This document shows, piece after piece, positions 35,309 to 37,788 of a DNA stretch of 47,611 bases; within the stretch, counting starts at the first letter, position 1, and each line of letters starts with the position of its first letter. The stretch lies in assembly GCA_001785115.1 (NCBI GenBank), contig MFSU01000102.1, positions 1 through 47,611 on the forward strand. The letters run 5' to 3'. The notes under the pieces were generated by a model, which was not told the origin of the DNA, made no database searches, and saw nothing but the letters and a program-made list of their open reading frames with translations. This DNA is from Candidatus Muproteobacteria bacterium RBG_16_65_34 (GTDB lineage: Bacteria; Pseudomonadota; Gammaproteobacteria; Acidiferrobacterales; Sulfurifustaceae). Made by a program: the position numbers and the translations under genes.

Positions 35309-35375
35309 AACGGCGCTGACTCGAAATCAGATGGGCGGCAACGCCACGGGGGTTCGAATCCCTCCCTCTCCGCCA
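35287..35375 (+). tRNA. tRNA-Ser(CGA), CCA encoded
   Basis: acceptor ggagagg/cctctcc, anticodon loop CTCGAAA, long variable arm, GGTTCGAATCC, CCA. Confidence 0.95.
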
Positions 35376-35597
35376 TTATCCCGCGCAGCGGGAAAATGGC
35401 TCATCATAAGCATGAGAACCCGAAGGGTGAAGAATCCTGCTGTACAGGGACGTACGAATGTCGCGGAGCGCAGGGCGAGGCGGAAAGAGACAACGGTCCA
35501 GTGGACCGTTGTCCCGCCGAGCGGGCGCGCCATGGAAGGTGCGCCCCGGGCTTTCGAGCGAAGCAGGACAGCGTAGTCGAAGAAAGCGCGGGAGCGA
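35361..35597 (+). repeat. tRNA-Ser 3'-end repeat unit A1 (237 bp)
   Basis: starts and is followed by cctccctctccgcca; shares the about 53-nt conserved block with A2 and B. Confidence 0.92.
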
Positions 35598-35752
35598 CCT
35601 CCCTCTCCGCCATTATCCCGCGCAGCGGGAAAATGGCTCATCATAATCATGAGAACCCGAAGGGTTCGACCAGCGCCGCCGGGAGCGCCGCCGAACGCCG
35701 GAGCGCAGCGACGGCGGCCCGGAGGGCGGAGGGCAGGAAGCCCGGAGTAATC
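35598..35752 (+). repeat. tRNA-Ser 3'-end repeat unit A2 (155 bp)
   Basis: cctccctctccgccattatcccgcgcagcgggaaaatggctcatcataatcatgagaacccgaagggt, then a new tRNA tail at 35753-35767. Confidence 0.92.
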
Positions 35753-35849
35753 CCTCCCTCTCCGCCATTTTCCTGCGCAGCTCGGTCCCTTCGGCACTCA
35801 CGCCCCAGACGGTTTTTGGCTAGAATGTGCCGGCCAAGACAGGGACACC

Positions 35850-36890: not shown

Positions 36891-36960
36891 GCCGCGTTGC
36901 GCGGCGCGGGCATCTGGTTTAACCTTCGCCGTCCAATTTTGCCCCCGCCGACCTGTTTTC

Positions 36961-37104
36961 CCGGAGAGGTGTCCGAGTGGGCGAGCCGGAGTATTCGCGG
37001 AGGCACTTAACGTGCCTCCGCGCCGGCGAGCGCCCGCACAGGGATGTGCGGGCCGGGGCTGAGCGAAGTCGTGGTGCTGCGCCAGGGACGGCGGGTATGA
37101 AATT
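36961..37104 (+). repeat. 144-bp module flanked by duplicated tRNA-Ser 5' end
   Basis: ccggagaggtgtccgag at 36961 and again at 37105 (tRNA start); contains gcggaggcac-ttaac-gtgcctccgc and cccgcaca-ggga-tgtgcggg hairpins. Confidence 0.9.
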
Positions 37105-37106
37105 CC

Positions 37107-37310
<204 letters not shown>

Positions 37311-37500
37311 CCTCCCTCTCCGCCATTTTCCTGCACCATTTTCCTCACGGACCGTCCGCCGATTGTCACCGACACCGCGGTTATCTCGGCGCGCGGCGCA
37401 TGGTACACTGTGCGTCCCTGGCAGGTGGTTGAAAAGCAGCCTTCCAGCCGTGCCGGAACGGGTGCGGCTCGAACGGCGGGAAACCGAGTACGACAGATTA

Positions 37501-37614
37501 TGGCGGTGAGGGCCGGTCCCCTCGGCGGCGAAGGCTTGTGAACCCGGTCAGGTCCGGAAGGAAGCAGCCGCAGCAGGCGATTCGGGTGCCGGGGTGCGTC
37601 CGGCTCGAGCCGCC
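37501..37614 (+). ncRNA. ffs: SRP (4.5S) RNA
   Basis: GGTCAGGTCCGGAAGGAAGCAGCC...GGTGCCGGGGTG core with complementary ends. Confidence 0.95.
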
Positions 37615-37644
37615 ACCCGACTAGAACCTGTTTCAAAATACTTT

Positions 37645-37727
37645 AAACGCGGATGAACGCAGATTTATTCTTAGGGATGAGCGCAGATATACGAAGAATT
37701 CGTGTGAATCCGCGTTCATCTGCGTTT
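37645..37727. repeat. 10-mer word inverted array (CGCAGATGAA)
   Basis: aaacgcggatgaacgcagat / atccgcgttcatctgcgttt, 18/20 complementary. Confidence 0.88.
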
Positions 37728-37788
37728 CAGGTGTTTTTGAGATAGTTTCTGGGGCCTGAGTCCATCGCATTAACATGGCATACCGGCA

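Follow-up and report, generated by a model that had tools for sequence, protein, structure and literature searches.

Tyrosine-integrase islands span kilobases, carry the integrase gene and in the classical case restore the 3' end of the tRNA gene into which they insert. At the tyrT locus of E. coli, rtT consists of tandem units of 100-200 bp that each carry a copy of the tRNA end, the 3' end being repeated downstream of one tRNA. Repeats of the REP/RAYT type (GTAG and CGTC families) are short hairpin DNAs with a fixed end motif that form dimers and occur both between and within genes, and REPs of the CGTC class have no dedicated transposase (PMC3733652). The Rickettsia palindromic elements are likewise small and are tolerated in frame within genes (PMC10969869).

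The window analyzed here, a whole stretch of 47,611 nt (contig MFSU01000102.1 of Candidatus Muproteobacteria bacterium RBG_16_65_34), contains a 20-nt direct repeat, CCGGAGAGGTGTCCGAG(T/C)GG, whose two copies are 95% identical and lie 144 nt apart, the right one at the start of an intact tRNA-Ser(GGA) gene (Table 1). Since the tRNA starts at 37107, each copy of the repeat includes a CC 5' of tRNA nt 1. Chance was rejected as its origin, as 100 first-order Markov shuffles of the region yielded no 20-mer repeat with one mismatch or none. The 144-nt segment folds with z = -4.2 against shuffled sequences and beats 200 of 200 shuffles, either as RNA or as DNA. The original prediction of a tRNA 5' end doubled around a hairpin module is therefore borne out, together with the two palindromes that it named, which are found at H1 and H2. 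It also described modules on both sides of the tRNA, and the tRNA 3' end does recur downstream, at 37311-37334. That a 5'-end duplication differs from the classical use of the tRNA 3' end by integrases is accepted as well. A decayed full tRNA gene upstream, named beforehand as the alternative, is ruled out, since the sequence between the copies holds no trace of a tRNA 3' part (alignment score 13, null mean 14.1, P = 0.74). Further downstream, the SRP RNA gene (37511-37608) is followed by an imperfect inverted repeat of the GCGGATGAACGCAGATT type at 37635-37737.

Table 1. Features of the tRNA-Ser(GGA) locus and of a second E copy in the window. T, copy of the tRNA 5' end; E, the dispersed element.
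Feature	Position	Strand	Basis
Promoter-like block, native to the tRNA-Ser(GGA) gene (TGGTTTAACCTTCGCCGTCC)	36914..36934	+	cross-genome conservation
Left T, copy of tRNA 5' end (CC + nt 1-18), stump of the original gene	36961..36980	+	repeat search, native context
D-loop GG, insertion point immediately 3' (GG^)	36979..36980	+	136/148 E left junctions are GG
Element E (GCGAGCCGGAG ... CGCCAGGGACGGCGGG)	36981..37095	+	covariance model, 123.7 bits
Hairpin H1, apex CACTTAACGTG, within outer stem	36996..37022	+	folding, covariation (9/11 pairs compensatory)
H1 palindrome arms	36997-37006/37012-37021		
Hairpin H2, GCCCGCACAGGGATGTGCGGGC (CANGGANG loop)	37032..37053	+	folding, covariation analysis
H2 palindrome arms	37033-37040/37045-37052		
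Hairpin H3, GCCAGGGACGGC, smaller	37081..37092	+	folding; pairs invariant
Tail/filler from E to second T (TATGAAATT)	37096..37104	+	copy comparison
Right copy T2, start of the working tRNA	37105..37124	+	repeat search
tRNA-Ser(GGA), intact	37107..37197	+	ARAGORN + Rfam
Downstream module of another type, ending with tRNA 3'-end copy (37311-37325)	37198..37334	+	repeat search
Second E, diverged, clean insertion (CGCAGG|GCGAGG) in the hairpin module downstream of tRNA-Ser(CGA); second T absent	35475..35584	+	51.8 bits

The module represents a single copy of a non-coding repeat of about 115-130 bp, here termed E, that is dispersed and conserved in structure. Its interior, taken without the tRNA, matches several other places in the same genome and sequences across the family. 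About 50 copies were gathered, and 31 of them were aligned to generate the covariance model R1, which detects 12-13 copies in the genome itself; in relatives the number reaches about 42. Changes on both sides are seen in 17 of 29 pairs, and 99.8% of cells are paired. E starts with GYGAR after a host GG, while its right end (NKG after GGC) is a putative one, placed by comparison of copies. The element is present in nearly all genomes of the window's family (Acidiferrobacterales / Ca. Muproteobacteria) and becomes thinner in other Gammaproteobacteria; among named genomes, matches to the pattern come from Acidiferrobacterales, Ca. Muproteobacteria, Sulfuricaulis and one further member of the Gammaproteobacteria. 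Sampling of the class gave E-like copies in 22 of 274 genomes, and sampling of the phylum in 6 of 299, all six belonging to the same class. The 144-bp unit is non-coding, and a comparison with plasmids and phages returned 0 matches. No known RNA family could be assigned, as hits, among them one to sX4 that overlaps the tRNA, stayed below threshold and the rtT RNA model of Rfam did not match the E unit. Scarcity of G-U pairs was discarded as a sign that the hairpins act as DNA and not as RNA, since the tRNA acceptor stems at the same loci are equal in this respect (0.7% in both). The module of the original prediction is confirmed, but it is not peculiar to this tRNA.

Comparison of orthologous loci shows E at the Ser site in G013 and G019 and an E-free site in G014, G005 and G029, and most relatives have no E at tRNA-Ser(GGA). 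A promoter-like block (TTTAMCCTTSGCC) precedes the left copy in the window, in G019 and in G013, and this same block precedes tRNA-Ser in E-free genomes, including the three just named. In the E-carrying genomes, the right copy is preceded by E and has no such block. Judged by this native context, the left copy marks where the gene originally began and the right copy is a regenerated one, so that the insertion is intragenic and the working tRNA is the regenerated copy. The duplication originally described thus stands, whereas its placement upstream of the gene does not: the interruption lies inside the gene, after the D-loop GG. In addition, G007 and G012 carry sequences resembling the E suffix immediately 5' of the tRNA, which may be decay products.

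Across 148 copies, the left junction of E is a host GG in 136 (AGG 66, TGG 35, GGG 28, CGG 7). The arrangement seen in the window, in which the GG-ending host sequence T recurs to the right of E (T-E-T), was called at a score of at least 11, an earlier null of mismatched loci having its 99th percentile at 9 and its maximum at 20. It was found in 61 of 148 copies, which is not an unbiased frequency because copies were chosen by score. Copies situated directly in recognized tRNAs make up 29 of these cases, array units 15 and others 17; the last include starts of protein genes, e.g. rng-, response-regulator- and glycosidase-like genes in G002, labels taken from the reading frame only. At tRNA 5' ends (n = 19), the junction lies at nt 18-19, the D-loop GG, in 18 cases and at nt 30 in one. 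At tRNA 3' ends E is antisense, and all ten junctions are at nt 16 from the outer (CCA) end. The outer boundary of T is in most cases 0-9 nt beyond the tRNA end, the distance being larger where a truncated older E lies in front. The genome itself provides further cases at tRNA-Thr (L040) and tRNA-Pro (L043).

At the Ser site, the E subtype of G000 differs from that of G013 and G019, and the site was therefore probably struck more than once. An array of seven units of about 145 bp stands in tandem 5' of a tRNA in G075, with the first T ending at the D-loop GG and later T at the GGG of the anticodon stem. In most tRNA cases, the sequence just 5' of T is unlike between the two copies, and plain target duplication alone is therefore insufficient. 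The duplication at E is either absent or variable, from 15 to about 80 nt, and single copies show neither the terminal inverted repeats nor the short fixed target duplication of MITEs. Tail-to-tail inverted pairs of E, bordered by ACAGGATTAACAGG and its complement, are present at L050-L052, L057, L061-L063, L066, L067, L070, L072, L074 and L075; such pairs come closer to MITE ends than single copies do.

Clean insertions also occur, gene names here being read off the sequence. Apart from the second copy in the window (Table 1), E sits in uvrC, apparently in frame and at an identical position in two genera (L045, L127), and at stop codons, where its own GTGAG apparently supplies TGA (L065, L128, L077, L145, L170, L183-L188). 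The latter concern rpmJ-, pstB- and xerD-like genes, with similar genes affected in distant genomes, and E without a second T is found at similar places in genomes that are Pseudomonas-like in gene content. Since clean insertions exist, the duplication is either not obligatory or lost where it is unneeded. At 35361-35775 of the window, tRNA-Ser(CGA) is followed by two modules in succession, both of which end in a copy of the tRNA 3' end, with the diverged E in the first. A different hairpin element, D, splits tRNA-Ser copies precisely in the T-loop (GGTTCGA^ATCC), and an intact copy follows (L013, L020).

With REP/RAYT repeats, E shares short hairpin DNA, a fixed short end motif, dimers and positions between or inside genes. 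It differs from them in its length, its three hairpins, the absence of a GTAG or CGTC tag and its sites in the tRNA D-loop and T-arm, alongside which the gene end is repeated. Tandem units with copies of tRNA ends recall rtT, but with E it is the 5' or 3' end that is repeated, at many tRNAs and also at protein genes. As with integrase islands, insertion is within the tRNA gene and a duplicated end restores it; unlike these islands, E is non-coding and is found at 5' ends no less readily than at 3' ends. Rickettsia palindromic elements resemble E in small size, palindromic sequence and tolerated in-frame insertion, whereas the review on them describes neither tRNA targeting nor a T-E-T layout, tRNA being unmentioned (PMC10969869). 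No published description of E or of T-E-T was found in the open-access literature searched, which is weak evidence of absence. E is classed here as a new variant among small palindromic mobile repeats.

The structural reading that best accounts for the junctions, and which is considered likely from sequence comparison, is that E is mobile and entered the gene with a duplication that restored it. E would then be a non-autonomous mobile element whose insertion fixes one junction only, GG|E-left. Its far end would be rejoined just 5' of the target's outer end, and everything from there to the insertion site would consequently be duplicated, giving a long and variable T. At tRNA ends only restoring events would be retained, because a clean insertion in a single-copy essential gene would be lethal. 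A fixed GG|E junction combined with a variable far junction points to a reaction that presumably begins at the host GG. That insertion is single-stranded or replicative, with the hairpins of E being recognized and the 3' end of the host GG extended or joined, is conceivable but somewhat doubtful. The sharp boundary of T at the gene end may reflect selection for the shortest restoring duplication; alternatively, the right-hand part may derive from another copy of the gene. The many E copies at old, conserved positions count against insertion by a mobile element.

The main rival, although unlikely, holds that a circular E-tail-T cassette integrates by recombination within T, which would serve as an att site as in tRNA genomic islands. 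Tandem E-T arrays, upstream sequences that are unlike between copies and occasional differences between left and right T (T/C in the window; starts GTGACACGC and ATGAAACGT at L055) would fit this model. However, this unit of about 140 bp is non-coding and contains no integrase gene, and T-less clean insertions occur; moreover, as E homologs bear many different T, the cassette would have to gain its T anew. A tandem duplication of the tRNA could also have come first, E then entering copy one and the remainder being deleted. In G002 and G011 (L013, L020), element D interrupts whole duplicated tRNA copies at the T-loop, which offers a parallel, yet in none of the inspected E cases, the window included, is any 3' part of copy one left, and the order of E, short tail and T2 recurs at very many tRNAs, which leaves this history with a low probability. 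Even less probable is a maintained regulatory leader, in which the hairpins, together with the 5' half as a decoy, govern tRNA processing or expression. The decoy is almost unchanged, H3 lies about 18-20 nt from the tRNA in many 5' cases, and H2 (37033-37052), like its counterparts in other copies, resembles a CsrA/RsmA-type hairpin motif (ACANGGANGU). This proposal explains neither spread nor junctions, and E is also found as an in-frame insertion in uvrC, at stop codons and, in antisense orientation, at the 3' ends of tRNAs, while being missing at tRNA-Ser(GGA) in most relatives.

A further alternative shares mobility with the preferred reading of a restoring insertion and differs in the enzyme and in the origin of T: E would be a REP-type element moved in trans by an IS200/605-like (Y1/RAYT) transposase, with T arising from secondary recombination. 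The hairpin architecture of E, the tail-to-tail pairs and a short host motif that is fixed next to one end are consistent with this proposal. Genes for Y1 transposases track the number of E within the family (Fisher p = 1.8e-4, with a cut picked after seeing the counts) and are present in 13 of 13 family genomes with at least 5 E. On the other hand, G020 and G036 have many Y1 genes and zero E, and the RAYT loci inspected (L108 in part) bear GTAG- or GGGTCA-type repeats with no credible E nearby. As the loci inspected hold other repeats, RAYT was rejected as the evident driver. Y1 elements are not known to produce a target duplication, which also counts against this alternative, and it is regarded as rather doubtful overall. 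Reverse transcriptase was likewise rejected as driver, being uncorrelated with E number and missing from many E-rich genomes; RVT_1 gave zero matches in G000, G011, G012, G013, G016, G018 and G019, several of which are incomplete, and its activity may belong to the past.

Essential tRNA genes are expected to be closed to small inserts. The E family appears to land where these genes are most conserved, at the D-loop GG and in the T-arm, while leaving the gene whole, and represents a testable case of target-restoring insertion. It would account for the otherwise puzzling half-tRNAs that lie 5' of tRNA genes and for arrays as series of repeated insertions at one locus. Tentatively, and with some doubt, E may stand for a hitherto undescribed class of minimal, non-coding mobile elements in Gammaproteobacteria, entering essential genes at a fixed GG, notably the invariant one of the tRNA D-loop, by a reaction that in itself re-creates the outer end of the target. 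If this is true, insertion into an essential gene would be harmless and could be repeated at one tRNA.
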